DNA of 40,913 nt. Origin: a virus. A model generated the notes under the pieces. The model was not told the origin of the DNA. It searched no databases and worked only from the letters and a program-made list of their open reading frames with translations. Location of the stretch: positions 1 to 40,913 of the IMG/VR virus record IMGVR_UViG_3300047552_000206; one strand, given 5' to 3'. Shown one piece after another: positions 3,482-36,196 of this stretch (position 1 is its first letter; every line of letters begins with the position of its first letter). Both the position numbers and the translations under genes were made by a program.

Positions 3482-3488
3482 ATAAATA
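3482..3488 (+). promoter_or_regulatory. ATAAATA motif (T4-late-like), possible ncRNA promoter
   Basis: ATAAATA just downstream of the iterons. If used like a T4 late promoter (TATAAATA), transcription would start near 3494 and run into the hairpin series at 3586-3676 with no gene of its own before 3787. It is one of ten such motifs found in the gaps of this window. Confidence 0.3.
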
Positions 3489-3493
3489 TCTCT

Positions 3494-3676
3494 GTACTCC
3501 TATGGTACACTGTCCAGTCAGACTTTAAACGACAGCAGATACCAACCCTTCGCGCTAAATTAGCTGTAGAATGGTTTATTCTCGCTTGACCAAGCTCTTA
3601 AATGGTCAATCTACTAGTGATTAAAGCCCACTAGTAGTGCTGATAACAACTTAGTTGTTGGCATTTTTTAATTTTT
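3494..3676 (+). ncRNA. Candidate structured non-coding RNA
   Basis: A roughly 180-nt region with no credible gene has three successive perfect inverted repeats: TTGACCA/TGGTCAA (3586-3592/3603-3609), CTACTAGTG/CACTAGTAG (3611-3619/3629-3637) and AACAAC/GTTGTT (3645-3650/3654-3659), the last followed by T-runs like a terminator. A promoter-like ATAAATA lies just upstream. This may be a small RNA, or these may be DNA structures belonging to the adjacent origin. The 5' end is a guess from the motif; no known RNA family is recognised. Confidence 0.3.
3645..3676 (+). terminator. Probable terminator hairpin
   Basis: AACAAC-TTA-GTTGTT followed by GGCATTTTTTAATTTTT. The stem is short and A/T-rich but the T-run is good. 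Confidence 0.5.
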
Positions 3677-3703
3677 CTATTATATGATATGTGATGGTAT
3701 CTT

Positions 3704-3735
3704 AGACCTGTAGTGTAAAAGACTACGGGTCTTTT
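3704..3735 (+). terminator. Intrinsic terminator upstream of the small-gene operon
   Basis: AGACCTGTAGT (3704-3714) pairs with ACTACGGGTCT (3722-3732), allowing one T-G pair, around a 7-nt loop, followed by TTTT. It would insulate the small-gene operon from transcription through the origin region. Confidence 0.65.
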
Positions 3736-3745
3736 GCTTGCACTA

Positions 3746-3773
3746 TTGACAAATAAACATTACGTGTTATCAT
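3746..3773 (+). promoter_or_regulatory. Sigma-70-like promoter for the small-gene operon
   Basis: TTGACA at 3746-3751 and TATCAT at 3768-3773, separated by 16 bp, form a good host-type promoter directly after a terminator. Its start site would be near 3780, leaving almost no leader before the ATG at 3787. An ATAAATA motif overlaps the same place (3776-3782). Confidence 0.55.
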
Positions 3774-3775
3774 TG

Positions 3776-3782
3776 ATAAATA
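3776..3782 (+). promoter_or_regulatory. ATAAATA motif 4 nt before gene start
   Basis: GATAAATAC ends 4 nt before the ATG at 3787. If it acts as a T4-type late promoter, the transcript would begin at or next to the start codon and be leaderless. No Shine-Dalgarno site is present. Confidence 0.35.
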
Positions 3783-3786
3783 CTCT

Positions 3787-4158
3787 ATGACTATACAATC
3801 AAACAAATCATTTAAAGCAGCTAAACCCACCAAGTTGAAGCTAGATATCGCTACCTTATATAAGTTCGCGTTATCTAAGATGAAGACAACTGCCGAGAAG
3901 TTTAAGGCAGATACTCAGCGTAAGATTAGCTTATCAAGTGCCAAGTACATCAGGACCGACAGAATTTTTTTCAGTAAAATCTGTCCGATCACCAATCAAC
4001 CATACTACCGTGACGAACTCATCTATGAGACTGCCAACTACTTTATTCGTACCACTGTACACGGCAAGATTATCGATATTGAGACGAAGCCACGCTCGGT
4101 GTTTAAGCCGCAGGTAGTAGTTAAAGTGCGCCGCACATTTAATAGGAACACAAAATGA
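3787..4158 (+). CDS. Hypothetical basic protein
   Basis: A 123-residue, lysine/arginine-rich protein of unknown function that opens a run of small genes. The centre holds ICPITNQPYY (about residues 65-74), with a single cysteine and no recognisable domain. High positive charge suggests nucleic-acid binding, but this is only inferred. The ATG at 3787 lacks a Shine-Dalgarno site and lies within a few bases of the predicted transcription start, so it may be translated from a leaderless mRNA; a later ATG at 3880 is possible but also lacks a ribosome-binding site. It overlaps the next gene by ATGA. Confidence 0.65.
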   Translation: MTIQSNKSFKAAKPTKLKLDIATLYKFALSKMKTTAEKFKADTQRKISLSSAKYIRTDRIFFSKICPITNQPYYRDELIYETANYFIRTTVHGKIIDIETKPRSVFKPQVVVKVRRTFNRNTK

Positions 4159-4535
4159 GCACCGAACATTTCAGAGACAAACGCGGTTCAACCAGATGGT
4201 ACAGATACACTGATACTGGTATCGAGCGCAAGGTAGTATTTGCTGGCGAGCCATTACCAGACCATACTTGGACACAGGGTATCGCGCCAACTATTACAGA
4301 TGAGCGCAGACAGTCATCTAGCGCTAGATTCCGTGGTGTGCCAAAGACAGACACTCAAAAATCTAAGATGAGAGCAGCCAAGCTAGGCGTTGCTAAGACT
4401 GCCCAACATAAATCAAATATGCGCGCATCACAACTAGCACACTCCGCGGAAGTTAAAGCTATTATGGAGGAGACACCGCTAACATACAGAGAAGCACAGC
4501 TCGAACTTAAACGCAGAAAGGCTCTACTTAAATGA
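4155..4535 (+). CDS. NUMOD3-like DNA-binding protein
   Basis: A 126-residue basic protein. Its second half carries two successive short helices with the spacing of NUMOD3 modules (about residues 55-95, including KSKMRAAKLG and HKSNMRASQ), which are DNA-contacting motifs in phage homing endonucleases. The first half (WYRYTDTGIERKVV and then a tryptophan and proline-containing segment) resembles the short region often preceding these motifs in phage proteins. No GIY-YIG or HNH catalytic motif is visible, so this is either a stand-alone DNA-binding protein or the remnant of a nuclease. It starts at the ATGA overlap with the upstream gene and ends in an ATGA overlap with the next. Confidence 0.6.
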   Translation: MSTEHFRDKRGSTRWYRYTDTGIERKVVFAGEPLPDHTWTQGIAPTITDERRQSSSARFRGVPKTDTQKSKMRAAKLGVAKTAQHKSNMRASQLAHSAEVKAIMEETPLTYREAQLELKRRKALLK

Positions 4536-4822
4536 CTATCGAACAACAATACGGACTCAGAGTTACCAAGTCGAATGAATTTCGCAAGACTATGGTCCAA
4601 CAACCAGCTAGTTTTTGGCAATCAGTTGGCACAGAAGAGTATTTACAGCCTACTATTACTAGAGAAGTAATGCTAGAAGTATCAGTTGGCGAACGAGATT
4701 ACGCAAAGATGACTGCCGACTTCAAAGAACTCCAGTTAATGCGCGACTTTATGCGCTGCCACCCAACTGCTTACAAGGACTTCAAGAACTTTGAGTTAGT
4801 TGATATGTTACGTAACGCTTAA
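4532..4822 (+). CDS. Hypothetical protein
   Basis: A 96-residue protein of unknown function, translationally coupled to its upstream neighbour through an ATGA overlap. It has a tryptophan-containing N-terminal third and a charged, probably helical C-terminal half (from about residue 50), with no signal peptide, membrane segment or recognised motif. It lies in the block of small genes between the origin and the lysis genes. Confidence 0.65.
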   Translation: MTIEQQYGLRVTKSNEFRKTMVQQPASFWQSVGTEEYLQPTITREVMLEVSVGERDYAKMTADFKELQLMRDFMRCHPTAYKDFKNFELVDMLRNA

Positions 4823-4828
4823 TAAATA
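4822..4828 (+). promoter_or_regulatory. ATAAATA motif 4 nt before gene start
   Basis: The motif overlaps the stop codon of the preceding gene and ends 4 nt before the ATG at 4833, the same spacing as at 3776. It may be a promoter for a leaderless transcript. Confidence 0.3.
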
Positions 4829-4832
4829 GATT

Positions 4833-4994
4833 ATGAGCGATCAACCAGTATCACCGGCGTCACCACGAGCGCAAGAGTTAGTAGACTGGATAAAAACCCA
4901 AGATCAACTAACAGCAGAAGCTCTCCGTAAACAGATGAGAGATATCAACGAACACTATGATCGACTATATTCAGAACCGAAAGATAAACAATGA
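4833..4994 (+). CDS. Small hypothetical protein
   Basis: A 53-residue acidic/polar protein. After a proline- and serine-rich start (MSDQPVSPASP) it is predicted to be mostly helical (LVDWIKTQDQLTAEALRKQM). Its stop codon is in an ATGA overlap with the next gene, which supports it being real. There is no clear Shine-Dalgarno site; the start is the first ATG, 4 nt after an ATAAATA motif. Function unknown. Confidence 0.55.
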   Translation: MSDQPVSPASPRAQELVDWIKTQDQLTAEALRKQMRDINEHYDRLYSEPKDKQ

Positions 4995-5541: not shown

Positions 5542-5544
5542 TCA

Positions 5545-7866: not shown

Positions 7867-8360
7867 TAGATTATAAGAAAAAATTTAGAGAACATAAGTC
7901 AAATGCCAAGAAAAGAAACATTCCTTTTCTATTCACGTTTGAAACATGGATGAAAGTGTGGGAAGAGTCTGGTAAACTTCACTTAAGAGGACATGGGAAA
8001 GACAAATATTGTATGGCTAGGCATAACGATGTGGGTCCATATTCGCCAGAAAACGTATCTATTCAGACAAATCTAAAAAATAACACAGACGGTGGAATTA
8101 GAAGAGATTATGATTTATGGTATAAAGAAGTACTCAAGTCAAGAAAGAATGAAGATTGGATTCGCTCGATATCAGGAGAGGGTAATGGTTTCTTCAAGGG
8201 AGCCGTAATCGGCACGAATAAAATTACTGGAGAAACCATCACATTGATTGGCAAGACAGCTATTGACAATGCTGGATTTTATCACCAACACGTTTATAAG
8301 TGTGTCAATGGTAAACTTAAATCACATGGAGGTTACACTTGGGTACGCCAACCAATCTGA
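7863..8360 (+). CDS. Putative HNH-like homing endonuclease
   Basis: A 165-residue protein wedged between the two terminase genes, overlapping both. Residues 4-75 match a pattern common in phage HNH-type free-standing nucleases: a basic helix, FTFETWMKVWEESGKL, then CMARHNDVGPYSPENVSI ending at an asparagine (NLKNN). The last 50 residues (GTNKITGETITLIGKTA through GGYTWV) resemble NUMOD-type DNA-binding modules. It is therefore probably a selfish endonuclease that cuts near the terminase genes. No classical zinc-binding cysteine pairs are visible, so the nuclease call is by pattern only. The terminase large-subunit start and its GGAGG site are inside its last codons. Confidence 0.6.
   Translation: MIDYKKKFREHKSNAKKRNIPFLFTFETWMKVWEESGKLHLRGHGKDKYCMARHNDVGPYSPENVSIQTNLKNNTDGGIRRDYDLWYKEVLKSRKNEDWIRSISGEGNGFFKGAVIGTNKITGETITLIGKTAIDNAGFYHQHVYKCVNGKLKSHGGYTWVRQPI
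8328..8341 (+). promoter_or_regulatory. Ribosome-binding site and TTG start of terminase large subunit
   Basis: GGAGG at 8328-8332, six bases, then TTG at 8339. The site is embedded in the glycine codons of the nuclease gene. No ATG or GTG occurs before the Walker A motif, so this rare start codon decides the large-subunit N-terminus. Confidence 0.7.
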
Positions 8361-9775
8361 ATTTATATGGCAAACAGTATGAGATTCTACAAGATTGGCT
8401 AACTACCGATAAGAACTGTGTAGACATCATTCACGCTGGTGCTGGCAAGTCATTCTTAGCATCTATTGCGTTACCAATCTTTTGTAGTGATGTCCGATTT
8501 CACAAGAACCGTGATGTGGTATACCTAGCTCCTACCTTCTCAATGGCTAAGACGATTATGTGGAACCCACTCAAAGAATCGTGTAAGCAATATTTCAATC
8601 TGCCTGAATCAGCATTCAACGTATCTGAGCTAACAATCAAATTCCCTGATGGTAACTATCTCAGAATGAAGTCAGCGGAGCAGGGCCTTAACCTACGCGG
8701 TATGAACATTTCATTAGCAGTGTTAGATGAGGCATCCCTATTCTCAGCCGAAGCTATTCAAGAAATATCGAACAGATTGCGTCCCTTGCCGGGCCAACCT
8801 GATAGTGAAGGTCGTATGATTGTTATCTCTACACCACACGGCACTGGCCCACTGTATAAGCTGTTCAATGATGCTCAACTAGACCCATCTAAGTGGATTG
8901 TCAGACACTACAACTATCTCCAGATGAAGAGCGGTAACAAGAAGTTCATTGAGAAACAACGACGATTACTATCACCACTTAAATTCGCACAGGACTATCT
9001 TTGCGTTTGGGATACTGTAGAGGATCAATTCTTCTACGCTTGGAACAAACAATATATTGGTGAAGTTAAAGACCGTGGTGGTGATCTATATGTAGGTATG
9101 GACTTCAACAAACGTGTTATGAACGCTGTCGTCGCCCAAGTAAAGAATGCTGGTAAGCCTGATGGAACTATTGAAGTTATTAAAGCATACTCAATCAAGA
9201 ACTGCGGCACAGAACAGATGGCTCAAGCTATCAGAGCAGACTTTAACAAACGAAATATCTTAGCCGTAATCGATATGAGTGGTAGCCAAGTCAATAGAGA
9301 CACTACGTCGGCATTCGGCGTTACTGATAGAACCCTATTAGAGAAGTATGGTTTCACTATTGTTAATACTAAGAAGGGTAACCCGCTTATTAGTGACACT
9401 GACAACAGCAGTAACGCATTCATTGCTCGTGGTGGTCTAACTGTGCCTGAAACAGAAACACCATTACTAGAAGCATTAGCAAGCTATCACTATGAAGATG
9501 CCGCTCGTAAGAAGCTGGTAAAGTCAATGGAATCAGATTACGCACACATCGACGGTTTAGGCGATGCTGCCAGATATTTGATTCATCACCTATTCCCAAT
9601 CACACACTCCAAAGGTAATCACATCGGTCACGTTGTTGCTGACCCTGGTAAGAGTGGGCGACCTGGTGACCAATACCGTAAAGAATCACCACTATACCCA
9701 GGTGGTCCATCGTGGGAAGAGATTATCGCTGGTAATACTGGCGGTGGCAAGATCAACGCAGTATCTTGGTATTGA
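8339..9775 (+). CDS. Terminase large subunit
   Basis: A 478-residue DNA-packaging motor. The ATPase half shows Walker A HAGAGKS (residues 32-38), Walker B AVLDEA (127-132) and the coupling motif IVISTPHG (161-168). The nuclease half shows the RNase H-like acidic residues in YVGMDF (D255), VIDMSG (D312) and HIDGLGDA (D405/D409). Length is typical. Translation starts at TTG with a GGAGG site inside the upstream nuclease gene. It docks on the portal encoded next, cuts concatemeric DNA and pumps it into the prohead. Confidence 0.93.
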   Translation: MGTPTNLNLYGKQYEILQDWLTTDKNCVDIIHAGAGKSFLASIALPIFCSDVRFHKNRDVVYLAPTFSMAKTIMWNPLKESCKQYFNLPESAFNVSELTIKFPDGNYLRMKSAEQGLNLRGMNISLAVLDEASLFSAEAIQEISNRLRPLPGQPDSEGRMIVISTPHGTGPLYKLFNDAQLDPSKWIVRHYNYLQMKSGNKKFIEKQRRLLSPLKFAQDYLCVWDTVEDQFFYAWNKQYIGEVKDRGGDLYVGMDFNKRVMNAVVAQVKNAGKPDGTIEVIKAYSIKNCGTEQMAQAIRADFNKRNILAVIDMSGSQVNRDTTSAFGVTDRTLLEKYGFTIVNTKKGNPLISDTDNSSNAFIARGGLTVPETETPLLEALASYHYEDAARKKLVKSMESDYAHIDGLGDAARYLIHHLFPITHSKGNHIGHVVADPGKSGRPGDQYRKESPLYPGGPSWEEIIAGNTGGGKINAVSWY

Positions 9776-9780
9776 AAACG

Positions 9781-9787
9781 ATAAATA
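9781..9787 (+). promoter_or_regulatory. ATAAATA motif before portal gene
   Basis: GATAAATAT starts 5 nt after the terminase stop. A T4-type start site would be near 9793, two bases before the AAAGGA site of the portal gene, giving a very short leader. Confidence 0.4.
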
Positions 9788-9805
9788 TTTAACAAAGGAA
9801 TACCG

Positions 9806-11395: not shown

Positions 11396-12013
11396 ATGAA
11401 AGTTACAATTGAAATACTCCAGAAGCTTTGCCCTAAGACGAAGAAGACAGTTCTACAAGAATACGTGGAACCGTTGAATCAAGTAGCCGAATACTACGAA
11501 CTCAATACACCAGAACGCTTAGCTGGCTTCCTAGCGCAAGTAGCGCACGAAAGTGGTGGTTTTACAGCAACTAAGGAAAACTTAAACTATTCTGCTAAGG
11601 GTTTAGCAACCACGTTTAAGAAATACTTCCCAACAGAAGAAGCTGCTAAGCCATATGAGCGCCAACCTATTAAGATTGCTAATCGAGTATATGGTGGTCG
11701 TATGGGTAATGGTGATGAGGCAAGTGGTGATGGTAGCAAATACTGCGGCAGGGGCCTGATTCAGCTAACTGGTAAGAACAACTATACTAGATTCGCTGCT
11801 GACTTAGGCATATCAGTTGATGAATGTGTGTCATATATGGAATCACCAGCGGGCGCAGTTAGCTCAGCGGCGTGGTTCTGGGATCAGAATAACCTTAATG
11901 ACTGCTGTGATGCTAATGACTTCGTTAAGCTGACTAAAAAAATTAATGGCGGTACGATTGGCATTGAAGATCGCCTCCATCACTATCACCTAGCACTAGA
12001 TTTATTGAAGTAA
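11396..12013 (+). CDS. Endolysin, GH19 chitinase/lysozyme family
   Basis: A 205-residue peptidoglycan hydrolase. The family signature is clear: FLAQVAHESGGF with the catalytic glutamate E52, ENLNYS (61-66), IANRVYGGRMGNG (about 94-106) and YCGRGLIQLTGKNNY (116-130). Phage enzymes of this family cleave the peptidoglycan glycan strand. No signal peptide is visible, so release would depend on the holin. The gene abuts the portal gene with no spacer, using an AGGA site at its end. Its location between portal and scaffold, about 4 kb from the holin and spanin genes, is unusual. Confidence 0.9.
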   Translation: MKVTIEILQKLCPKTKKTVLQEYVEPLNQVAEYYELNTPERLAGFLAQVAHESGGFTATKENLNYSAKGLATTFKKYFPTEEAAKPYERQPIKIANRVYGGRMGNGDEASGDGSKYCGRGLIQLTGKNNYTRFAADLGISVDECVSYMESPAGAVSSAAWFWDQNNLNDCCDANDFVKLTKKINGGTIGIEDRLHHYHLALDLLK

Positions 12014-12024
12014 TAGCAATACTA

Positions 12025-12031
12025 ATAAATA
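12025..12031 (+). promoter_or_regulatory. ATAAATA motif before scaffold gene
   Basis: Motif 11 nt after the endolysin stop and about 90 nt before the scaffold gene; a start near 12037 would place the following hairpin at the very 5' end of the scaffold mRNA. Confidence 0.4.
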
Positions 12032-12039
12032 TATATTGA

Positions 12040-12120: not shown

Positions 12121-12921
12121 ATGTCAGATTATATCGACAACGGCGAAGGCCAAGTAGACAGTGGTGCTACTCAACAAACCACACAAGGTCAGCAAAATGA
12201 CCAACAAGCAGTCAACCCAGCTGCTATTCGTAAGTCAACACAGCAATCAATGCTTAAAGCAGCTTCAAACGCAGCTGGTATGGAATTCCAAAGTATGGAA
12301 GACCTTATCTCAACCGTAGCAAGATTGTCACAAGCTCAGAGCGCTCAACCAGCACAACAAGCCCAACCTCAAGGCGAAACTGCTGCTGAGAAACAAAAGC
12401 GCATCACTGCTACAGACTTACAAGATCAACTACAAGCTATGCAGGCTAAGTTTGAGCAAACACAACAACTAGCGCGTGAGCGTGAATTAGATATCTCTAT
12501 TCGCAATGCTATGGGCGATAAGTTCGATGCGGCTTTCTCTGATTATACAATGAATGAAATCAAGAAATCACTTAAAGAACAAGACGGTGAATGGTTAGTT
12601 GTTAACAACAAGAATCAACAACGCTACACTGAGAGTGGCACACCAATGACAGTTCAGAACTTAATTGATGAACTAGGTCGTGCTAATCCTAAGCTACTCC
12701 GAGCTGCTCCACAACCTCAAGGCGGCAGCGGATTGCGTCCACAAGGCAATATGTTCGATGGTGTCCCAGGTGATGGCGAATTCGTGCCAGATTATACTAG
12801 AGATCCAGCAGCATTCGAGCAATGGGCAAGTCGCAAAGGCTTATCAAAGAACAATGGCTTGAAGGGTGTAGGAGTAGCTGTTCAAAACAGTTCGCCTGGT
12901 CGTTTATTTGGCACAAACTAA
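12121..12921 (+). CDS. Capsid scaffolding protein
   Basis: A 266-residue hydrophilic protein located directly before the major capsid gene. It is rich in glutamine and alanine, with a low-complexity start (residues 10-35), a predicted coiled coil around 130-165 (LQDQLQAMQAKFEQTQQLAR) and a disordered glycine/proline-rich tail. This composition is typical of scaffolds, which template prohead assembly and are then lost or degraded. No protease domain is visible in it or nearby. The ribosome-binding site is weak (GAAAAG). Confidence 0.75.
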   Translation: MSDYIDNGEGQVDSGATQQTTQGQQNDQQAVNPAAIRKSTQQSMLKAASNAAGMEFQSMEDLISTVARLSQAQSAQPAQQAQPQGETAAEKQKRITATDLQDQLQAMQAKFEQTQQLARERELDISIRNAMGDKFDAAFSDYTMNEIKKSLKEQDGEWLVVNNKNQQRYTESGTPMTVQNLIDELGRANPKLLRAAPQPQGGSGLRPQGNMFDGVPGDGEFVPDYTRDPAAFEQWASRKGLSKNNGLKGVGVAVQNSSPGRLFGTN

Positions 12922-12962: not shown

Positions 12963-12969
12963 ATAAATA
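12963..12969 (+). promoter_or_regulatory. ATAAATA motif before major capsid gene
   Basis: GATAAATAG in the 203-nt gap before the capsid gene. A transcript starting near 12975 would carry a leader of about 150 nt with several potential hairpins. In T4 the major capsid gene also has a strong late promoter of this type; the parallel is an inference. Confidence 0.45.
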
Positions 12970-15649: not shown

Positions 15650-15680
15650 AGGGGATTACTCAAAAGGTAGTCCCCTTTTT
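15650..15680 (+). terminator. Intrinsic terminator after tail tube gene
   Basis: GGGGATTAC (15651-15659) pairs with GTAGTCCCC (15667-15675), including one T-G pair, and ends in TTTTT. It would reduce expression of downstream tail genes relative to the abundant tube protein. Confidence 0.85.
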
Positions 15681-15689: not shown

Positions 15690-15696
15690 ATAAATA
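15690..15696 (+). promoter_or_regulatory. ATAAATA motif at start of small tail gene
   Basis: ATAAATA immediately after the terminator and one base before the ATG at 15698. A T4-type start site (about 15702) would fall inside the gene, so either it serves the genes further downstream or the motif has another role here. Confidence 0.3.
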
Positions 15697-15697: not shown

Positions 15698-15898
15698 ATG
15701 AGCGAATCAAAGAAACAATGGCTAACTGATGAAGATGATATCTTATCATCATTAGTAGCTGATGAGGCAAAAGCCAAAGCGATTTTAGTTGATATGGAGA
15801 ATTCTCTCCGTCAACTCAAAGCAAAGTCCAGCTTCAGACTGGCACTACTTAACTCACTTAGAGAGAGTAGAAACAAATCACAGAAAGAAAACAAATGA
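15698..15898 (+). CDS. Small hypothetical tail-region protein
   Basis: A 66-residue charged, helical protein, probably a coiled coil (EAKAKAILVDMENSLRQLKA). An in-frame ATG at 15686 would add four residues (MNKY); 15698 is preferred only because it begins like other genes here (ATGAGC). Neither has a Shine-Dalgarno site. It overlaps the tail chaperone gene by ATGA. Function unknown; it might assist tail assembly. Confidence 0.55.
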   Translation: MSESKKQWLTDEDDILSSLVADEAKAKAILVDMENSLRQLKAKSSFRLALLNSLRESRNKSQKENK

Positions 15899-16434: not shown

Positions 16435-16743
16435 ATGCTTAAATTTACCCTACAACCCGTTAGAAAAGACATCGCCCTTCAATCAAAGAAGGTTGAGAAT
16501 GAATTAAAGAAGTTGCCACAAAAAGCAACAGAATTCTTTAAATATGGCGCTCCTACTCCTATTAAGAGTGGTAACGCTCGTCGCAATACTGGGTTAATAA
16601 AGGACAGCATTGTGGCTAACTACCCGTATGCTGGTAGATTAGATGAAGGCTATTCTAAACAAGCGCCAGATGGTATGAGTCAACCAACGCTGGAGTATAT
16701 TCAGCGCACAGTAGCAAGAATTATGAAGGGCGGTAGAGCGTAA
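16435..16743 (+). CDS. HK97 gp10-like minor tail/neck protein (second copy)
   Basis: A 102-residue protein with features of the gp10-like family: N-terminal basic helix, a TPIKSGNARRNT turn corresponding to the family TPVDTG-x-L/A-R region, YPYAGRLDEG, and a C-terminal helix ending in basic residues. It lies between the tail chaperone and the tape measure. Its relation to the other gp10-like protein (5545-5856) is only at the level of family pattern. The start has a weak TAAGAA site; the stop overlaps the tape-measure start (TAATG). Confidence 0.6.
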   Translation: MLKFTLQPVRKDIALQSKKVENELKKLPQKATEFFKYGAPTPIKSGNARRNTGLIKDSIVANYPYAGRLDEGYSKQAPDGMSQPTLEYIQRTVARIMKGGRA

Positions 16744-18962: not shown

Positions 18963-19658
18963 ATGTCGCTACAACAAATCATCAACAAATGTAATGAACT
19001 CCACTTCGACCGTCGTCGTGTGATTGGTATTCAAACTACTCGCAACGAAACAATCAAAACAGCAGAGACTCCAACGCTAAACACTTGGAAGTTCAAAGTC
19101 ACATCTAGTAACGGCTTACCATATAGTTTGAATCGTGATCTCTTAGAAGCACTCGACTATATGGACCGTAGAACTGCTGAGACTATTACATTCTCTAACA
19201 ACAGTAAGATGAGCTGGATGTTCGCGTATCAAGGCGCTATGACACAAGACGATATCAATATGATGTATGTCAGTAGCTTTATCGGCAATGAACTAGTGCT
19301 TAGTGGTCTAACTACAACTGGCCCTGCCAGTGCAGCAAACGCTGTCCTATTCAAGCCTGGTGATATCATTCAGTTAACTGATAAACCATATCCATTTACT
19401 GTAGTTGAAACAGTGCTACGTGGTTCAAACTCAACAGTTACAGTCAAGACTCATCGTCCAAATATCATTGGTGATGCCGCTATAAATAAATCTGTCATTG
19501 TTGGTAATGCCGTATCATTCCGTGTTCTTTGTGTCAATATGCCAACTTATAAACTGGTACCAGGCGCACAGATAACTACTGGTGGTGTTCTAACTAACAA
19601 TGCCCGAATCGAGTTTAGTGATTCATTTCAACTGATTGAATACACTGACTTACTTTAA
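18963..19658 (+). CDS. Distal tail protein candidate
   Basis: A 231-residue protein following the tape measure, in the slot of lambda gpM-type or Dit-type proteins that begin the tail tip. It is rich in beta strands, with a helical N-terminus and a C-terminal half of alternating strands (VETVLRGSNSTVTVKT). No diagnostic motif is recognised; assignment is by synteny. The start lacks a good Shine-Dalgarno site, and the gap to the tape measure is only 6 nt, so coupling is likely. It contains an internal TATAAATA (19481-19488) that is probably coincidental. Confidence 0.5.
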   Translation: MSLQQIINKCNELHFDRRRVIGIQTTRNETIKTAETPTLNTWKFKVTSSNGLPYSLNRDLLEALDYMDRRTAETITFSNNSKMSWMFAYQGAMTQDDINMMYVSSFIGNELVLSGLTTTGPASAANAVLFKPGDIIQLTDKPYPFTVVETVLRGSNSTVTVKTHRPNIIGDAAINKSVIVGNAVSFRVLCVNMPTYKLVPGAQITTGGVLTNNARIEFSDSFQLIEYTDLL

Positions 19659-24195: not shown

Positions 24196-24202
24196 ATAAA
24201 TA
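24196..24202 (+). promoter_or_regulatory. ATAAATA motif before first baseplate/fibre module
   Basis: GATAAATAT, three bases after the J-like stop. The predicted start near 24208 leaves only the AAGGA site and ATG (24221), the same compact layout as before the portal gene. Confidence 0.4.
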
Positions 24203-24220: not shown

Positions 24221-24700
24221 ATGTCGTTAAAATTAAGCGATTTCGGTAAGTGGTTACAGGGTGGAGACAAGATTGATTTCTTAGAAACCCGCATCGGTGA
24301 GCAATATGTAATCCCATTTACAATCAAAGACAACTCAACTCCACCAGTTGCTATTAACCTAACCGGTTGGACATTCGATGTTACATCCGAGATTATGAGC
24401 GCTAACTTTACCTATGATGGTAGTGGAGAATTAAGCTCAGTTAGTGATTTCACTAAACAAGTATCGGCTAGAACAGTCGCTGGTTTAGAAGTAGTTAACA
24501 TCGTAGAGAGTGGCGGCACTGGTATTCTTAAAGTGCCAGCCGGGGCTACACCAACACCATCTACCCTAGTTACTCCTGATGCTAACAATACCCTTATTAA
24601 TGTTATCACAATCACAGCAACATATCCATCGTCAGTAACAGGTTTCGACAACGTTCGTAAACTAATGATGGGTCTAATCATTCGCTACGGCAATAAGTAA
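24221..24700 (+). CDS. BppU N-terminal-like baseplate/fibre adaptor (first copy)
   Basis: A 159-residue beta-rich protein. The early pattern YVIPFTIKDN...VAINLTGWTFDVT (about residues 28-53) is like the Ig-like N-terminal domain of upper-baseplate proteins (BppU type), which attach receptor-binding proteins to the tail. A paralogue of similar layout (DITVANDDGTPYDLTGWI) is encoded at 36289-36783, and both genes directly precede a long fibre gene. It is likely to dock the fibre encoded at 24714. It has an AAGGA site. Confidence 0.55.
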   Translation: MSLKLSDFGKWLQGGDKIDFLETRIGEQYVIPFTIKDNSTPPVAINLTGWTFDVTSEIMSANFTYDGSGELSSVSDFTKQVSARTVAGLEVVNIVESGGTGILKVPAGATPTPSTLVTPDANNTLINVITITATYPSSVTGFDNVRKLMMGLIIRYGNK

Positions 24701-26227: not shown

Positions 26228-26368
26228 ATGGCACTTCAATTTAGACGAGGCACAGAAGCCGAAAGATTAACAGTAGTATTTGCTGAAGGCGAATTAATTT
26301 ATATCACTGATACAAAAAAGATTTATATTGGTGATGGCGTTACCGTTGGTGGTATCTTGGTAGAATAA
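26228..26368 (+). CDS. 46-residue stand-alone fibre N-terminal domain
   Basis: A small protein consisting only of the attachment domain that starts the next gene: MALQFRRGTEAERLTVVFAEG here versus MSLQLRRGLEADRTTIVPAAG there, followed in both by GEL-Y-TDTKK-YIGDG. This Mtd/T4-like-cyanophage-type N-terminal domain normally fixes a fibre to the virion. As a free protein it could cap or trimerise fibres, or be the remnant of a lost fibre gene. It has no clear Shine-Dalgarno site; TTAAATAT precedes the ATG. Conservation of frame and codons suggests it is translated. Confidence 0.6.
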   Translation: MALQFRRGTEAERLTVVFAEGELIYITDTKKIYIGDGVTVGGILVE

Positions 26369-28405: not shown

Positions 28406-28414
28406 GGAAAATAA

Positions 28415-29992
28415 ATGTCAATTCAACTAATCAACGGCCTATTTCACACCGTAGCTAACACCAACGCAGATGAAACAGTAGTAACAGGCTTACACACTGC
28501 TAATCTTACAATCACTGGTAACTTAACTGTTCCTGATGGTAAGTTATATCTAGCAGGCGGCTCAAACGGTCAAGTGCTAACAACTTATGGCAACGGCACT
28601 ACACACTGGACAACACCAACTGGTGGTTCATCTGGTGTTACTAACGTAGCAACTGGTGGTAGCGGATTAGGCTTCTCATTAAGTGGTGGTCCAATTACAT
28701 CTACTGGTACCATTACCCTTGCTACACCTAATGCCGCAAGTTTGCGTAGTAGCCTATCTATTGGTAACGTTGCTAATATTAACTTCAATAGTTCCACTAC
28801 TCAGTTCTTGCGTGGTGATGGCACTTGGGTTGCTCCTAGTGGCAGCGGTGGTAGTGGCAGCGGCACAGTAACATCAGTTGGTGGTACCGGCTCAGTATTA
28901 GGATTCTCATTAAGTGGCACAGTAACAACAACTGGTAACCTTACCCTAGCTGGCCCATCAGCCGCAGTGATGAGAGACAACATCGGTCTAGGCAATATCG
29001 CTACAATCAATGCTACTGGTTCAACAACTAACTTCTTACGAGCAGATGGCACTTGGCAAACAATCACCGGCAGTGGTTCTAATGCTCCTAACTTAAACGG
29101 ATCGACTACTCAGTTCTTACGTGGTGATGGCACTTGGGCAACACCAGGTGGCGGTGGCACAGTTACTTCTGTAGGCGCTAATGGCAGTGGTCTAGGATTC
29201 TCCCTATCAACACCTGTTGGTGGTATCACTGATACTGGTAATATTACTCTTAACACACCGACAACTACCGCCCTAAAGACCAGTTTGGGTCTAGGTAATA
29301 TTGTCGCTACAAACTTCAACGGCAATGGTCAAACTGCGTTAGCTGGTAATGGCGGTTGGGTAACTATCAGTAGCGGTAGTTCTAGTAACGTTCCTAACTT
29401 GAGTGGTAATACTGCTCAGTTCTTACGTGGTGATGGTTGGGCTGCGTTACCAGTAGGTAATATTGCTACACTAAACTTAAATGGTAACGCTAGTCAAATA
29501 TTGTATGGTAATGGTGCGTTTGCTGCTGTGCCTGCTCCTAGTTTAAGTGGTGATGGTAATAACATCTCAGTAGTTGGCACAACTGTATCGCTGAACTCAT
29601 TCAAGTTTGCTAAAGAAGTTGTTGGTTTGATTACCTTACCTTCTACTTCAACTGTTAACATTGACCTACTAACAAACAGTATTGTTTATAACTCAGCAAA
29701 TGCTACTACTGGTTTCTCTATCAACTTACGTGGTAGTTCGACTGCTACTATGGCCAGTATGATGAATGCTGGTGAATCAATTACCGCAACTGCTATGATC
29801 ACTAATGGGCCTACGCCACAAACAATCACTAGTATGACTATCGATGGTGTAACTCAAACAGTTAAGATGTTAGGTGGCAGTGATTTAGCTGGTAGCGCTA
29901 ACAGTATTGTATCATATTCATTTACTGTAATGATGACAGTGAAGTCGCCAGTAAAGTATACCGTAATCGGTAGTAAAGCTATCTATAAATAA
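28415..29992 (+). CDS. Tail fibre protein
   Basis: A 525-residue fibre. The shaft is made of repeated blocks of about 75-105 residues, each with GLGNI-x-x-x-N-x-N-G, then a QFLRGDGTW or FLRADGTW turn (about residues 130, 205, 232, 336), and GLGFSLS strands. The early SNGQVLTTYGNGTTHWTT module recurs in the other fibres. The C-terminal 150 residues are different (strands around SIVYNSANATTGFSINLRG) and are the likely receptor-binding or trimerising tip. It has an AAGGAAA site. The perfect TATAAATA motif overlaps its final codons. Confidence 0.75.
   Translation: MSIQLINGLFHTVANTNADETVVTGLHTANLTITGNLTVPDGKLYLAGGSNGQVLTTYGNGTTHWTTPTGGSSGVTNVATGGSGLGFSLSGGPITSTGTITLATPNAASLRSSLSIGNVANINFNSSTTQFLRGDGTWVAPSGSGGSGSGTVTSVGGTGSVLGFSLSGTVTTTGNLTLAGPSAAVMRDNIGLGNIATINATGSTTNFLRADGTWQTITGSGSNAPNLNGSTTQFLRGDGTWATPGGGGTVTSVGANGSGLGFSLSTPVGGITDTGNITLNTPTTTALKTSLGLGNIVATNFNGNGQTALAGNGGWVTISSGSSSNVPNLSGNTAQFLRGDGWAALPVGNIATLNLNGNASQILYGNGAFAAVPAPSLSGDGNNISVVGTTVSLNSFKFAKEVVGLITLPSTSTVNIDLLTNSIVYNSANATTGFSINLRGSSTATMASMMNAGESITATAMITNGPTPQTITSMTIDGVTQTVKMLGGSDLAGSANSIVSYSFTVMMTVKSPVKYTVIGSKAIYK
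29984..29991 (+). promoter_or_regulatory. TATAAATA (perfect T4 late-promoter consensus)
   Basis: The exact T4 late consensus overlaps the end of the fibre gene, 57 nt before the next start at 30049. A transcript from about 29997 would begin with the hairpin GGTAAC/GTTACC (29999-30004/30017-30022). Confidence 0.45.
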
Positions 29993-30048
29993 AGAGATGG
30001 TAACTGGCAGTTGTTGGTTACCTAATCAATCAACGAAAGAAATAAGTA

Positions 30049-32823
30049 ATGCCAGTAATCAATACGCAGGGTAGTTTAAGCAGCACAGATGAGTTCGGAC
30101 CAGGTAGTGTTCCATATATTGTAAATTTAGTCGGCGCTAAGAAGATCGTTCCTAGTTATGATGGCACCAGATTTTTGGCTCTAACTACTAATGGCGCATC
30201 TGTTTATGTTTGTCAAGCCGGTGGTGGAGAATACAGTATAGAATATACGATACCACTTCCAACTGATTATTCAGATACCATGGATGGAGATTTGAATGGA
30301 GCTGGGGATAAACTTCTTATTTCTTTCTCTGCCGCTGGTGGAGCAGTAGCAACAAACAATGGTAGAGTATGCGCGTATACTCGTATTTCTGATTTACCAG
30401 TGACATTTACAGATACTGGAGACCTAGTAACATTAACAAATCACGGGTTAAAGTCAGGTAAACAAATCACATTTAAATCAATCACAACCACAACTGGTAT
30501 CACTAAAGATACTATATATTATGTCATTAACCCAACAGCAACAACATTTCAGGTGGCAGCTACACTTGGAGGAGCAGCTATTGCTCTTACAACTAATGGA
30601 TCTGGCGTATTAAAGGGTTATTGGAATCTAATTACGACAGTTAATGAATCTAGCACCACTACTGGTTATAAATTTGGTCAGTCAGTATCCGTGAGCGACG
30701 GTAATGGTTCAGTGATTGGGCAATATAGTTCAGGTGACACTACGCCAGGCAAATACGATGGCTATCTATACTACTATGGCAATATCTTTTCTACATCTGC
30801 TACTGTAGCATCAACCCGAACTCAGTTAATCAGATACACCGCATCAGATGCTAGTAATCCAACGTGGCCACGTAATCCACTTATTACTAATGATGGTAAC
30901 TATGTTAAAGTTCATCAGCGTGACGCATTATCAAACTCAATGATAGTAGCGGATACATTTAGCGTAACTACCGGTAAACAAGTAACTATACCAACTACAG
31001 TAATTTATCACTCTATGAGTGTTAAGCCGGATTCATTGGACTGGTCTAAGAATAAATTAGGCAGACTATTCTCATCTAAGATTCTAAGTGGCGATAGTAA
31101 TGTATCGTTCGAGATGACTATTGATATGGATGTATTAAATATCTCGTGGGGTTTATTAAAAGTAGTAGTAGAAACTCCATGGTCACCAACAAATAGAACA
31201 CCATATATCATTGAAGTTACAACTGATATAACAAACGATAGCTTATCAATTAGCCTATCATCTAAATCATCTGGTACAGTTTCTGTTGATTGGGGTGATA
31301 GTTCTGCTGTAGCAACTATTACTACTACAAACAATGCGGCATCTATTGCCACTCATACATATGTAGCGACAGGTTCTTATCAAATAAAGATTAAATCTTC
31401 TACTGGTTATATTAAAGCATTTATACCAACAAGTGGCTATGATGATACTAGATTACGTAGAGTTATACAATGGGGCAATCAACGTTTCTATGATATGCGA
31501 TCTATGTTTAGACGCAGTATAGAACTAACATCATTTGGAGCCGATATACCAGATACCAGTGAATGTACCGATATGACATCTATGTTCTATGGAGCAATAA
31601 AATTTAATCAATCATTAAATGACTGGGATGTAGGTAAAGTAAAATATTTTGATAGTATGTTTGCCCAGACGCAGCTATTTAACCAGCCATTAAGTCAATG
31701 GTCTACAGATAGTGCTCTAACAATGAATACTATGTTTGATAATTCTCAAGTATTTAATCAAGATTTAAGTAACTGGTGTGTGAAGAATATTACAACTCTT
31801 CCAGCTAATTTTACTAGTCCTGCCCAAACTCTACCATTGCCAGTTTGGGGCACTTGTCCTTATCCTAGATCATCAACTACTATTGTGGCTATCACAAAGG
31901 ATTATTCATTTACTTCTGGTACCACTGTTAATATTGCCCCTGTTACATCAACATCTCTGTTATATTCACACGCACTTGTTCCAACATCAGGCACATCAAC
32001 ATCAGTATCATTTGAAACTGAAAGAGCAGCTACGGTCAGTATTGTTCACGCAACAGGCGGCCAATCACCATACGTATATAGTATATCTCCAACATTGCCG
32101 CCATATTTAAGTTTAAATACTAGCACTGGCAATATCACTACACCATCAAATAATACTACATCTATGCCAGTTACAAAATACTATATCACTTCTAAAGATA
32201 TCTATAATAATACAGTTACCACTGATATAGACATTAATGTAACTATTAGACCATTATATGTTGATTTCGAATCAGTTACATTATTCTACTTAAATAAAGG
32301 CGTAGCAGCAGATCCTCTACATTTAACCGACGCATATTATGGACAAAAGCCATATACGTATTCAATTTCCCCAGCGCCAACTTCTGGATTGACTTATTTG
32401 AATGGAATATTATCTGGAACTCCTACTGCTACTGGCATAACTGAATATACTGTGTCTGTTACTGATTCAGTTCCAGTAAAGTCAGCTGAAAAGAAATATA
32501 CAGTTCACGTATATGATGGTAATATGACTAAGTATACACAAGTTAACGGGAGCGTAAATACTGGTGGGACCGGTATAGTTAGTTTTACTATTAAATCATC
32601 ATCAGCAAATGAATATTTTAAAATTTTATGGGGTTCTAATTGGGGTGGCACATATCAAACTGTTTATTTCGAAACAGCTAATACAAGCAGAACATTCTCC
32701 ATAACTTTATCAACTACTAATAGCCCTAACGGAGCAACTGTTTCTGGACTTGGATATTCCTATACTATTAGAGTATATGGCTTAACGAAACCAACAGTAA
32801 CATCAACCTTTTCAGTAATTTAA
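30049..32823 (+). CDS. Large adhesin with DUF285, PKD and Ig-like domains
   Basis: A 924-residue protein. Order: N-terminal region of unknown fold (1-115); a DTGDLVTLTNHG/YYVINPTATTFQV domain (about 117-187) like the tandem domains at 27878-28318; a linker region; a PKD-like domain with DWGDSS (about 413-418) ending in THTYVATGSYQI; a classical DUF285/BspA-like leucine-rich region (about 482-604: MTSMFYGAIKFNQSLNDWDV, FNQPLSQW, MFDNSQVFNQDLSNWCV); then two He_PIG-like Ig domains (about 650-823, with YSISPTLPPYLSL and ILSGTPT) and a C-terminal strand region. It ends 4 nt before a second large gene that begins inside an Ig domain, so the two may once have been one gene. GAAAGAAA precedes the ATG. 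Confidence 0.65.
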   Translation: MPVINTQGSLSSTDEFGPGSVPYIVNLVGAKKIVPSYDGTRFLALTTNGASVYVCQAGGGEYSIEYTIPLPTDYSDTMDGDLNGAGDKLLISFSAAGGAVATNNGRVCAYTRISDLPVTFTDTGDLVTLTNHGLKSGKQITFKSITTTTGITKDTIYYVINPTATTFQVAATLGGAAIALTTNGSGVLKGYWNLITTVNESSTTTGYKFGQSVSVSDGNGSVIGQYSSGDTTPGKYDGYLYYYGNIFSTSATVASTRTQLIRYTASDASNPTWPRNPLITNDGNYVKVHQRDALSNSMIVADTFSVTTGKQVTIPTTVIYHSMSVKPDSLDWSKNKLGRLFSSKILSGDSNVSFEMTIDMDVLNISWGLLKVVVETPWSPTNRTPYIIEVTTDITNDSLSISLSSKSSGTVSVDWGDSSAVATITTTNNAASIATHTYVATGSYQIKIKSSTGYIKAFIPTSGYDDTRLRRVIQWGNQRFYDMRSMFRRSIELTSFGADIPDTSECTDMTSMFYGAIKFNQSLNDWDVGKVKYFDSMFAQTQLFNQPLSQWSTDSALTMNTMFDNSQVFNQDLSNWCVKNITTLPANFTSPAQTLPLPVWGTCPYPRSSTTIVAITKDYSFTSGTTVNIAPVTSTSLLYSHALVPTSGTSTSVSFETERAATVSIVHATGGQSPYVYSISPTLPPYLSLNTSTGNITTPSNNTTSMPVTKYYITSKDIYNNTVTTDIDINVTIRPLYVDFESVTLFYLNKGVAADPLHLTDAYYGQKPYTYSISPAPTSGLTYLNGILSGTPTATGITEYTVSVTDSVPVKSAEKKYTVHVYDGNMTKYTQVNGSVNTGGTGIVSFTIKSSSANEYFKILWGSNWGGTYQTVYFETANTSRTFSITLSTTNSPNGATVSGLGYSYTIRVYGLTKPTVTSTFSVI

Positions 32824-32827
32824 TATT

Positions 32828-35800
32828 ATGAACCCAATTTATACAATTTCGCCAGATTTACCACCAGGTCTTACATTCAATAGTTCTAATGGCACTATTT
32901 CCGGAACACCATCAGCTGTTCAATTAGCAAAGAATTATGCTATAACTGTTTCGTATACCAATGGTACATTAACTGAAACTGCTACAGATAATATTTCAAT
33001 AGCTATTGATAGAATTGAGTTGACCTTAGCTGCTAAAGAGCCTATTGTTACCATAGTAAAAAACACAGCTATGACTGCTAGATCATTCGTTGAAGTTAAT
33101 GGTGGATATCCACCATTAACTTATAGTGTTACTCCTAATCTACCTACTGGCATCACAATGAATGCTGCGACAGCAATAGTAAGTGGAACTCCAACATCTG
33201 CTAATTATCCTAGTGATTATACAATAATAGTAAGAGACTCATTATTAACAATTAGCTCGACGACAATTAATTTGACTGTAACACCTATTCCTATAACAGT
33301 TATTGTTAACAAACCATCATATAAATTTCTGTATGGTGAGATTCTTGCTACGTCTTATCCTATAACTGCTACTGGAGGTGAAGGCACATTGACATATTCA
33401 ATATCGCCAGCTCTACCTAATGGAATATTATTAAATTCCAATACTGGTAGTATATCTGGTACTGCTCTAGACTCATCAATTGCTACTAATTATACAATAC
33501 TAGTTACTGACGGTGTAGGAACACAAATTTCTGCTCAGTTCAGTATAGAAGTTTACATTGAGACATTGGTATTAAATACCGCTTCTAGTAATTTATATTA
33601 CACAAAGGGGGAATTGATTTCATCGACTAATATTTCTAAAGCCTCTGGTGGAGTTATTCCATACAAATATTCACTTTCTCCAGTAATAAGTGGAGTTACA
33701 TTCGATACAGCTACTGGTAATATTAGTGGCACTCCTACTACAATCAATACATCCCTAAGCACTACGGTTAATAGTAATATTATTAATAATAGTGTGTTCG
33801 GTATCGGTGGTGGATATACATCTGTTGTATATGGTAATGGAGTTTGGGTAGCTAAAGGTTGGGATGGAGTAAGTAGTTTTATTAGTTATTCTAAAGATTT
33901 TTCAAAAACGTGGACCAGAGTTGATTTAATTAGCGGTGTCGGTAAGTTAATGTATGGAGCTGGTAAGTTTACACTTGGTGATTCACAATATTCATATGAT
34001 GGGGTAACATGGTATAACTCAGTAAATGGGGCATCTATAACTGGTCCAACGGCATATGGCAATGGCATTTTTGTTGTAATATCAAGTGCTTCTGGTGATT
34101 CTTCTGCTAGTATTTCTAAAGATGGTATAACTTGGGTGGGCACATCATTACCAACTACTGATGGATATCATAGTTGGTCATCTGTTGTATGGGGTAAAGA
34201 TAAATTTGTTGCTATTTCCGATGGCGACATTGGCGATGGAGGCACAACAACATATGCTATCTCAAAAGATGGCATTTCTTGGGAAAAGAAAACACTACCA
34301 TTACAATCTAGATGGTCATCTATTACATATGGTAATGGGGTGTTCGTGATTGTATCAAAAAGAAAAACTACAGTTGGTGTATCATCTACGTGTTATTCTT
34401 CTGATGGTATAACTTGGAATATTGGCTCCGGTATACGCACTACCGTAAATTGGTCGTCAATCTCGTATGGAGAAGGCACATTTATTGCTACTGATTATGG
34501 ATTTGGTGGTGATAATTATTTAGCTCGTAGTTCTAATGGTAGCAACTGGTCTATCGAATACACAAATGCCCATAAATGGTGGTCTGAGATTGCTTATGGT
34601 GGTGGAGTATTTGTAATTGTTTCTGAAGTTGGGGTATTACAAAAATTACCAGTTAATAAAATAACAACTATAGAGTCTACAACAAAAACATATTCTATAA
34701 CTGTAATAGATGATAAAAAAACTAGCGTAACTAATAATAAAATTATAGTAATTAGAGAACCAGTAACAGTAGTTACTATGACTCCAAATATAACTCTATA
34801 TTCATCAGTGAAAACTGATAATTTATTTGTAGTGTCAGCTTCCGGCGGCACTAATAGATTTAAATCATATACTATAAGTCCTTCGTTGCCAACAGGTTTA
34901 ACATTTAATCAAACTACATCTATTATTTCTGGCACACCTACGGTGAATATGAGTAAAAAAACATATACTATTACTGCTACTGATACAGAAGGTAGAGTTG
35001 GCTCAGTAGATATCAATATAACCATAACAGATGTGCCATTGAGTATTAGTATGCTAAATGGTGGTATTTTTAATATTACAAAGAAAACTAATACATATAT
35101 TTTACCAGCATTAGTCTCTGGAGGGAAATCACCATATACATATAGCTCATCATCATTAGTGCCTTCATTAACTATGAGCAGTATTAATGGTTCGATTTCT
35201 GGAATTACAAATACAGCAACTAATCAAACTTGGGATTATTCTAGTTATATGCCAGAATCAGCAACTACTATAGTCACTAGTGGTAACAATATATTAGTTT
35301 CAGTTTCTGAAAATGGTAGGTCTGTATATTCATCAGATGGCAAAACGTGGACTAGAGGCGGGCAATTACCACAAGGCGGCGGTTATAGTTGTATTGCCTT
35401 TGGCAATAATATATTTGTGGCAATTAATCGTAGCGGCACGTGCGCTTATTCTTCAAATGGCATATCTTGGACACAGGCAACAACTGGCATAAACGAGAGT
35501 TTTTCAATTTCATATGGAGATGGAGTATTTGTTGCTGTTAATGAGAACAATTATAGTGCTAGATCTACTGATGGCATAAATTGGTCATTATCTACTATGC
35601 CAACTAGTGATACTTGGAGAGTGGCCTATGGAAATGGGTTATTTGTTGCTGTTGGACATTCTACTCAATATACGGCTGGGTCTAATAATGTTGCTATTTC
35701 TAATGATATGGGTTTAACTTGGACAGCAAGAAAGATTCCTGAAGTTGCCCAATGGAGAAGTATTGCATACGGTAATGGTGTTTTTGTATGTGTTGCAGGT

Positions 35801-36175
35801 AGTGACACAGGTAGTTTTACTAAAAAATCTGCTGTTTCAAAAGATGGTGATATTTGGACAATATATAATAATTTACCAACTATTTCACCTTGGGAATCAG
35901 TGTCGTTTATTAATGGAATGTTTATTGCTATTGGGGCCGGGGTACGAACAGCAGAACGCGGAACAGCTTACTCAATGGATGGACAAATTTGGAAAGATTT
36001 AAAAGCATCACCGTGGTCTCTTTGGTATGGGGTGACTGGCACAAAAGATTATTTGGTACTTGTTGCGTATAGTGGAACTATTGGATTAATACCAAATATT
36101 TCAACATATACAGTTACAGCAACTGATTCTAGTGGCTCATCAGTATCTGGTAATTTTGCTATTATAGTGACATAA
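32828..36175 (+). CDS. Large adhesin: Ig-like domains with two nested beta-propellers
   Basis: A 1115-residue protein with about six He_PIG-like Ig domains marked by the pair YTISPDLPPGLTF...GTISGTP. The fourth (about 241-640) and sixth (about 738-1115) are each interrupted at the same loop, after N/S-ISG, by a beta-propeller of repeated YGNGVFV-V...S-DGITW blades (about 323-600 and 802-1085); the Ig fold then resumes with TYTVTATD-type strands. The protein starts directly in the middle of an Ig domain and lacks a ribosome-binding site, so it may be the displaced second half of the upstream gene, translated by reinitiation. Its DNA is visibly more A/T-rich than neighbouring fibres, suggesting recent acquisition. 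Likely a receptor-binding or glycan-binding tail appendage. Confidence 0.65.
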   Translation: MNPIYTISPDLPPGLTFNSSNGTISGTPSAVQLAKNYAITVSYTNGTLTETATDNISIAIDRIELTLAAKEPIVTIVKNTAMTARSFVEVNGGYPPLTYSVTPNLPTGITMNAATAIVSGTPTSANYPSDYTIIVRDSLLTISSTTINLTVTPIPITVIVNKPSYKFLYGEILATSYPITATGGEGTLTYSISPALPNGILLNSNTGSISGTALDSSIATNYTILVTDGVGTQISAQFSIEVYIETLVLNTASSNLYYTKGELISSTNISKASGGVIPYKYSLSPVISGVTFDTATGNISGTPTTINTSLSTTVNSNIINNSVFGIGGGYTSVVYGNGVWVAKGWDGVSSFISYSKDFSKTWTRVDLISGVGKLMYGAGKFTLGDSQYSYDGVTWYNSVNGASITGPTAYGNGIFVVISSASGDSSASISKDGITWVGTSLPTTDGYHSWSSVVWGKDKFVAISDGDIGDGGTTTYAISKDGISWEKKTLPLQSRWSSITYGNGVFVIVSKRKTTVGVSSTCYSSDGITWNIGSGIRTTVNWSSISYGEGTFIATDYGFGGDNYLARSSNGSNWSIEYTNAHKWWSEIAYGGGVFVIVSEVGVLQKLPVNKITTIESTTKTYSITVIDDKKTSVTNNKIIVIREPVTVVTMTPNITLYSSVKTDNLFVVSASGGTNRFKSYTISPSLPTGLTFNQTTSIISGTPTVNMSKKTYTITATDTEGRVGSVDINITITDVPLSISMLNGGIFNITKKTNTYILPALVSGGKSPYTYSSSSLVPSLTMSSINGSISGITNTATNQTWDYSSYMPESATTIVTSGNNILVSVSENGRSVYSSDGKTWTRGGQLPQGGGYSCIAFGNNIFVAINRSGTCAYSSNGISWTQATTGINESFSISYGDGVFVAVNENNYSARSTDGINWSLSTMPTSDTWRVAYGNGLFVAVGHSTQYTAGSNNVAISNDMGLTWTARKIPEVAQWRSIAYGNGVFVCVAGSDTGSFTKKSAVSKDGDIWTIYNNLPTISPWESVSFINGMFIAIGAGVRTAERGTAYSMDGQIWKDLKASPWSLWYGVTGTKDYLVLVAYSGTIGLIPNISTYTVTATDSSGSSVSGNFAIIVT

Positions 36176-36189
36176 TCTAACACCAACAG

Positions 36190-36196
36190 ATAAATA
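36190..36196 (+). promoter_or_regulatory. ATAAATA motif before second baseplate/fibre module
   Basis: GATAAATAT in the 113-nt gap after the large adhesin, about 90 nt before the ATG at 36289. The equivalent module at 24221 also has this motif upstream. Confidence 0.4.

Follow-up and report, generated by a model that had tools for sequence, protein, structure and literature searches.

The 40,913-base IMG/VR record IMGVR_UViG_3300047552_000206 (the window), a likely fragment of the genome of an uncultured phage, contains 11 copies of the word ATAAATA, every one on the + strand and none on the - strand. Eight lie wholly inside the gaps between genes, and 10 of the 11 fall within the gaps when these are extended by 10 nt on each side. 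The sites are well supported as late-type promoters, and it is probable that they are read by a gp55-type sigma factor and head the virion-gene units of the phage. What is unusual is the location and the strand of the sites and not their total, which is ordinary (11, against 13.4 on both strands in dinucleotide shuffles). A first-pass annotation of this DNA had proposed T4-type late promoters, and its 11 positions proved exact, including the single + strand site inside a gene (19482). The sites and the features adjoining them are given below, with offsets counted from the first A of the motif to the start codon.

3482 to 3488, + strand: ATAAATA in the middle of a 699-nt gap, with no gene start within 300 nt downstream
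3746 to 3773, + strand: sigma70-like promoter TTGACA-N16-TATCAT with TG before the -10 (11 of 12 consensus bases), a candidate early promoter, the match not being evidence of function
3776 to 3782, + strand: GATAAATA, putative late-type site; start codon of 3787-4158 at offset 11, predicted leaderless
4822 to 4828, + strand: ATAAATA touching the stop codon of 4532-4822; 4833-4994 starts at offset 11
9781 to 9787, + strand: GATAAATA, portal gene at offset 25, AAGGAA as Shine-Dalgarno-like sequence
12025 to 12031, + strand: ATAAATA upstream of 12121-12921, which is taken as the scaffold gene from its position between portal and capsid
12963 to 12969, + strand: GATAAATA with the major capsid gene 162 nt downstream; best window score by the position weight matrix of the group
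15650 to 15676, + strand: terminator-like hairpin, 13 nt upstream of the motif at 15690
15690 to 15696, + strand: ATAAATA at the start of 15698-15898
19482 to 19488, + strand: TATAAATA inside the distal-tail-like gene 18963-19658, a doubtful promoter
24196 to 24202, + strand: GATAAATA before 24221-24700, offset 25
29985 to 29991, + strand: TATAAATA overlapping the stop codon of 28415-29992; 30049-32823 starts at offset 64
36190 to 36196, + strand: GATAAATA before 36289-36783, offset 99

The placement at gaps or gene ends described in the first-pass annotation holds with some corrections, as 4822 and 29985 overlap the preceding stop codons and 15690 overlaps the start region of 15698-15898. Motifs do stand upstream of virion genes; 3482 has no gene close behind it. 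Initiation at offset 12 from 15690 would fall within the open reading frame (ORF) 15698-15898, and a promoter role of this site would therefore be for 15895 onward. The sigma70-like promoter directly upstream of 3776 may form an early/late tandem with it, and the 3482 site, followed by terminator-like hairpins, could possibly drive a short RNA.

After the small ORFs 4833-4994 and 26228-26368 had been added as genes, the 27 gaps of the window amounted to 1,676 nt. Markov models of the gaps predict about 1.2 sites, and no simulation out of 1,000 reached 10 with either order. The earlier expectation of fewer than one site was slightly low because the gaps are A-rich; the excess itself stands. Of 300 simulated gap sets per order, 14 at order 1 and 12 at order 2 nevertheless contained some other 7-mer at least 10 times, so that the window alone would not settle the question and the relatives provide the real test. 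ATAAATA reads identically backwards, and a reversed-word control therefore says nothing about it. The perfect octamer TATAAATA occurs at two places only, the 29985 site and 19481, inside a gene; its backwards word, which is a different one, has 6 matches.

Relatives were collected by a terminase search, which returned 175 loci; 80 were kept, mostly at about 60% identity. In 79 loci (L001-L003 left out), ATAAATA occurs 191 times in sense and 16 times in antisense orientation in gaps, compared to 73 sense and 11 antisense occurrences in coding DNA as called. Conservation at individual gene junctions was then measured on orthologues with 160 nt of upstream sequence. L001-L003, L083-L090, L106-L109 and the window itself were left out of these counts, and G001, whose primase (74%) makes it the nearest contig to the window, was re-entered as one joined contig. 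The junction counts are not independent: some contigs are represented by several overlapping loci, and some are near-identical to one another. Among 742 orthologue upstream regions, 172 carry a sense ATAAATA and 4 an antisense one. The word is found at the portal junction in 67 of 77 relatives, at the scaffold junction in 50 of 55, before gene 36289 in the fibre region in 12 of 12, before gene 24221 in 8 of 9 and before gene 15895 in 15 of 26. It is absent upstream of the terminase (0/78), of gene 5179 (0/55) and of gene 14185 (0/37). Between non-redundant sites of one junction, the identity of the motif-anchored flanks is 0.30-0.33, near chance; the word therefore persists while its surroundings do not.

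The closest contigs are G001, G003 and G009, which together with the window are referred to as the window's clade; G005, G006, G007, G008 and G010 represent the wide group. Sites 3776, 12025, 12963, 15690 and 24196 have counterparts in all three of the closest contigs. The counterpart of 36190 is present in G001 and G003, the G009 contig stopping earlier, and that of 29985 in G003 only (30716, at the end of the gene orthologous to 28415-29992). For 19482, G001 and G003 have a site elsewhere in the same gene only. The 699-nt gap holds extra sites in relatives (8588 and 8822 in G001, 4809 in G003). Six later loci, found via the scaffold protein and not used for any definition, also display ATAAATA around the scaffold, capsid or 15698 genes, some of them being near-copies of each other or of G003.

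The form of the motif was derived from 92 non-redundant sites among the 172 junction sites. It begins with G at -14 (58/92); the base at -13 is free, and the ATAAATA core is followed by C A W T A. The information is limited to the ATAAATA core and the adjacent bases, and no conserved element is observed in the -35 area of these 92 sites, where the highest upstream column reaches 0.29 bits. A or T is favored at offsets 8-12, which leaves an AT-rich segment after the motif. The likeness to T4-type late promoters that had been proposed is thus borne out, with the core placed before virion genes, no clear -35 element and AT-rich DNA downstream. The T4 octamer TATAAATA, which the first-pass annotation had taken as the model, does not apply: at -13, the 50 sites of the window's clade have G in 26, A in 17 and T in only 5. 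The dialect of this clade is (G/A)ATAAATA. Across the 92 non-redundant junction sites, T occupies -13 in 28, versus 18 of 28 sites in the T4 late region. In the five wide-group contigs, -13 shows no comparable bias, whereas G stands at -14 in 22 of 41 sites; the contrast between the two sets gives a Fisher P of 0.0009 for G at -13 and of 0.005 for G at -14.

The distance between motif and start codon provides an independent hint of initiation at the distance expected of a T4-type promoter. According to the excerpted text of PMC2988020, the T4 late promoter begins at -13, with TA at -13/-12; plain counting from these positions places +1 at a distance of 12 nt downstream of the first A of the motif. 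Start codons, defined as ATG or GTG opening an ORF of at least 60 aa, were tallied for 223 non-redundant sites; site 4822 of the window, whose ORF has 53 aa, falls out of this tally. Offset 12 is occupied in 11 cases and offset 11 in 5, with none at 10, 14 or 15, and a second mode is found at 22-28, where Shine-Dalgarno-like words fit. Eleven control 7-mers gave 0-4 start codons at offset 12. Start codons at offset 11 or 12 follow 11 of the 55 sites counted on both strands of the window's clade, versus none of 45 in the five wide-group contigs; eight more occur in other wide-group contigs. In the window, both sites of this kind are at offset 11 (3776 before gene 3787 and 4822 before gene 4833). 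The G001 counterpart of 3776, at 9049, lies at offset 12 before the orthologue of 3787-4158, and G009 has an exact counterpart of 4822, at 6708, with offset 11 before the orthologue of 4833-4994. In the T4 late region, one of 28 sites has a start codon at offset 12 and none at 11. Start codons at the predicted +1 suggest leaderless mRNAs.

Terminator-like hairpins ending at most 70 nt upstream were found for 15 of 222 sites, compared to 2-6 of 199-283 for five control 7-mers. A cassette made of a terminator, a spacer of 12 to 14 nt and the motif before gene 15698 is common to the window, G001, G003 and G009.

A candidate for the factor reading these sites was found in G001. A first set of 35 group records was searched with the PHROG family of T4 gp55 (phrog_234), followed by 22 more, one of which had already been searched; L107-L109, which have a sigma relative and otherwise no match to window or G001 proteins, were excluded from the group counts. 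One of the 56 records matched: G001, at position 1742-2083. The corresponding 295-aa ORF (L088:1208-2095) matches two PHROG families, 'sigma factor for late transcription' at E 6.8e-63 and, at E 2.9e-26, T4-type late sigma; it aligns with the T4 gp55 of PDB 7d7c at E 1.6e-5 by sequence. Its structural model is weak (pLDDT 55) and has the gp55 of 7d7c as first fold match (E 0.029). The protein retains the residues invariant across 12 gp55 proteins, the homology extending over sigma region 2, and by eye ends short of the T4-type C-terminal, clamp-binding segment. Its gene stands beside replication genes and is surrounded by ATAAATA sites; L088:3407-4441, the homologue of the primase-like gene 49..1134 of the window, follows about 1.3 kb downstream. 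Of the 13 sites in G001, 10 have G at -13, the highest proportion of the clade. Two sites on the minus strand of this contig precede a gene of that strand, at 12 and 85 nt from its start. The gp55-type factor that had been predicted outside the window thus exists in a close relative, beyond the part of its contig that corresponds to the window, although it is not general in this group. Since the window contig ends just short of the place of the G001 sigma gene, it is plausible but unproven that the window's own phage encodes such a protein, the chances being perhaps even or a little better.

The mechanism that we propose can be briefly summarized as follows. The host core RNA polymerase, associated with a small gp55-type sigma, would recognize (G/A)ATAAATA at about -13 to -6, without any upstream element. 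The AT-rich DNA behind the motif would melt and transcription would start about 5 nt past the motif, presumably late in infection. Each gap site would head a unit of virion genes (portal, scaffold, capsid, tail, fibres), in some cases with a terminator directly before it. Where the start codon falls at the predicted +1 the mRNA would be leaderless; elsewhere, a short leader with a Shine-Dalgarno-like sequence is expected. In G001, the sigma would be supplied by the gene beside the replication genes. Reading by a gp55-type sigma is likely in the window's clade.

A number of observations weigh against this scheme. The capsid junction carries the motif in 1 of 46 relatives (3 of 46 with a longer upstream stretch, in the wide group), and the 9781 portal site is kept in two of the three closest contigs, G001 being without it. 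Within the window, 15690 overlaps the ORF that it precedes, 3482 closely precedes no gene and 19482 is intragenic. Two control 7-mers have start-codon peaks of 9 at other offsets, and the excess of upstream hairpins is modest because hairpins downstream of the motif, used as an internal control, reach 8 of 222. No group record but G001 yielded gp55 among the 56 searched with phrog_234, and the 22 further records gave none by either late sigma family. The replication-coupled activators invoked in the first-pass annotation were not found, gp33 and gp45 each being absent from 35 group records, mostly fragments, and T4-style replication coupling has no support here. Finally, two relatives are closed by end repeats: G008 (about 30.6 kb; repeats of 131 nt with 3 mismatches at the extreme end) and G039 (about 32.9 kb; 123 nt, exact). 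They display 9 sense and 1 antisense, and 8 sense and 0 antisense, distinct ATAAATA sites respectively, and in neither did a family search or a local six-frame gp55 profile detect gp55.

The absence of gp55 from these closed genomes and from every other group record searched leads to an alternative in which the sites are promoters read by a host alternative sigma or by a phage protein unrelated to gp55, the G001 sigma being a lineage-specific acquisition. The dialects differ as if by factor, with G at -14 and then CATTA in the wide group and G at -13 in the window's clade, and the sites of G001 itself are the richest of its clade in G at -13. We consider this alternative unlikely, as the core and the absence of a clear -35 element match T4-type promoters and no sigma-like protein was detected among 10 proteins of G008, 10 of G039 and 10 further ones from three contigs; the one transcription-family match in G008 and G039 (E 0.51) is a ferritin-like protein. 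Nine conserved small families are also unlike gp55, though many small proteins belong to no family; a search for a divergent gp55 among the conserved small proteins returned scattered noise with hmmsearch (E above 2) and hhalign probabilities of at most 1.1%. A single-subunit RNA polymerase was considered as reader and rejected: a polymerase-like motif was suspected by eye in a 574-aa protein of G008, family and structure-sequence searches were empty, and the model of the protein was too poor to use (pLDDT 37). This protein cannot explain the whole group in any case because, among the contigs seen, it is shared only with G007. The gp55-less small phages might instead borrow the late sigma of a co-infecting T4-like or jumbo phage, their late genes being helper-dependent. 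T4-type sites in closed genomes without gp55 would fit such a dependence, and homologues of gp55 are frequent among large phages, with 617 records. The idea is very unlikely, given that G039 and G005 carry their own primase- and helicase-like genes and that the closed genomes have full virion gene sets, in which, to our knowledge, they differ from known satellites. T4 gp55 moreover requires the clamp and gp33 for full activity, as stated in the excerpted text of PMC2988020. In a broader and rather improbable scenario, the sigma-less small phages would depend for the expression of their virion genes on a sigma supplied by another phage or on a gp55-type host factor, and G001-like members would have become independent by capturing a jumbo-type gp55, their promoters then shifting to GATAAATA with leaderless starts.

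Two other explanations do not involve a dedicated reader. ATAAATA could be an element of translation initiation or mRNA processing, as some sites stand 4-5 nt before a start codon; this is highly improbable, most sites being far upstream at conserved distances (48-51 nt before scaffold, 150-209 nt before capsid) and the genes in many cases having a Shine-Dalgarno-like sequence of their own. A chance origin in gaps that are AT-rich and strand-biased might be advocated on the grounds that the gaps are 36% A, that all genes are on one strand and that the total count across the window is not raised. Its probability is practically nil: the simulations, the retention of the word at orthologous junctions and the low identity of the flanks led to its rejection, and the relatives already refute it. 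Sigma70 promoters were rejected as an explanation as well, none being over-represented in the window, with counts below those of shuffles.

The preferred reading, late-type promoters served by a gp55-type sigma, has several known counterparts. The T4 late promoters and gp55 of the Straboviridae share the ATAAATA core, the lack of a clear -35 element, the AT-rich downstream DNA, the position before virion genes and, through G001, the type of sigma. Unlike T4, T is not preferred at -13, gp33 and gp45 were not found, the G001 sigma is without the C-terminal clamp motif, the virion genes are siphovirus-like and many start codons lie at +1. The system behaves like the T4 late promoter system, yet it is not filed as a member because it departs from T4 in several defining features. 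The late promoter of cyanomyovirus S-PM2, given as NATAAATA in the excerpted text of PMC2984593, leaves the base at -13 free and is nearer to the group form than the T4 octamer; the same text describes cyanomyoviruses as T4-like phages carrying g33 and g45 homologues, which were not found in the group described here. The nearest named relatives of the G001 sigma are those of the jumbo phages PA5oct, 121Q and Atu_ph07 (PHROG 12791; 32-41% identity), which have the same form of about 280-295 aa. In a 49-kb stretch of PA5oct, G occupies -13 at 8 of the 10 gap sites (GATAAATA), as it does at 10 of 13 sites in G001. PA5oct differs in that the start codon is at least 26 nt from the motif at its 10 gap sites, none being leaderless, and the jumbo genomes are far larger (287-490 kb).

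T4 late transcription relies on a split sigma coupled to replication and is described for T4-related myoviruses in the excerpted text of PMC2988020. The presence of such a promoter, and in G001 of the sigma, in siphovirus-like phages would separate the sigma-promoter pair from both the clamp coupling and the T4 virion. No description of gp55-type late promoters in siphoviruses was found in the open-licence literature, represented mostly by titles and the openings of abstracts. Two closed genomes rich in such promoters and devoid of the sigma pose a puzzle as to which factor reads them, and the predicted leaderless starts amount to single-nucleotide predictions.

The siphovirus-like character of the phage, already suggested in the first-pass annotation, is deduced from gene content: a tape measure protein and a distal tail match are present, and no window protein matches the PHROG contractile-tail families (sheath, baseplate). 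The gene set comprises terminase, portal, capsid, tape measure, fibre and endolysin genes, a weakly matched distal tail gene and, at the left end, primase-like genes.

49 to 1134, + strand: primase-like gene (PHROG E 2.2e-13); the window contig ends 48 nt upstream of it
8339 to 9775, + strand: terminase large subunit (PHROG E 1e-39), the bait for finding relatives
16743 to 18956, + strand: tape measure protein (PHROG E 1.9e-13)
18963 to 19658, + strand: distal-tail-like gene (weak PHROG match, E 0.0016)

No close isolate of the phage is present in the phage record collection, a single scan of the GTDB genomes with a terminase alignment, aimed at the host, turned up no relative, and RNA elements and tRNAs were looked for in the window with a negative outcome. 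The replication genes left of the terminase are exchanged among members of the group: different primases or helicases are found in the window and G001, in G003, in G005 and in G039, and an orphan protein in G007 and G008. A third, more distant circle (L132-L134, L136, L139, L140 and L144; terminase identity 25-30%) has the same primase, and some of its contigs display ATAAATA close to the end of the terminase gene. An endolysin-like gene (11396-12013 in the window) separates portal from scaffold in the window and likewise in G001 and G009; G008 and G003 have other genes or none at this place. Both closed relatives encode ferritin-like proteins (L030:4384-4818 and L129:18011-18445, both phrog_3636; Pfam Ferritin E 2e-13 for the first), and a protein of 541-574 aa without family matches (L030:5652-7376 and L046:3472-5097) is the largest non-virion gene product of the closed G008. 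The 699-nt gap of the window (3088-3786) contains repeated ACGTGCTTG and CAAGCACGT words and two near-copies of a stretch of about 35 nt, and may be an origin-like region.

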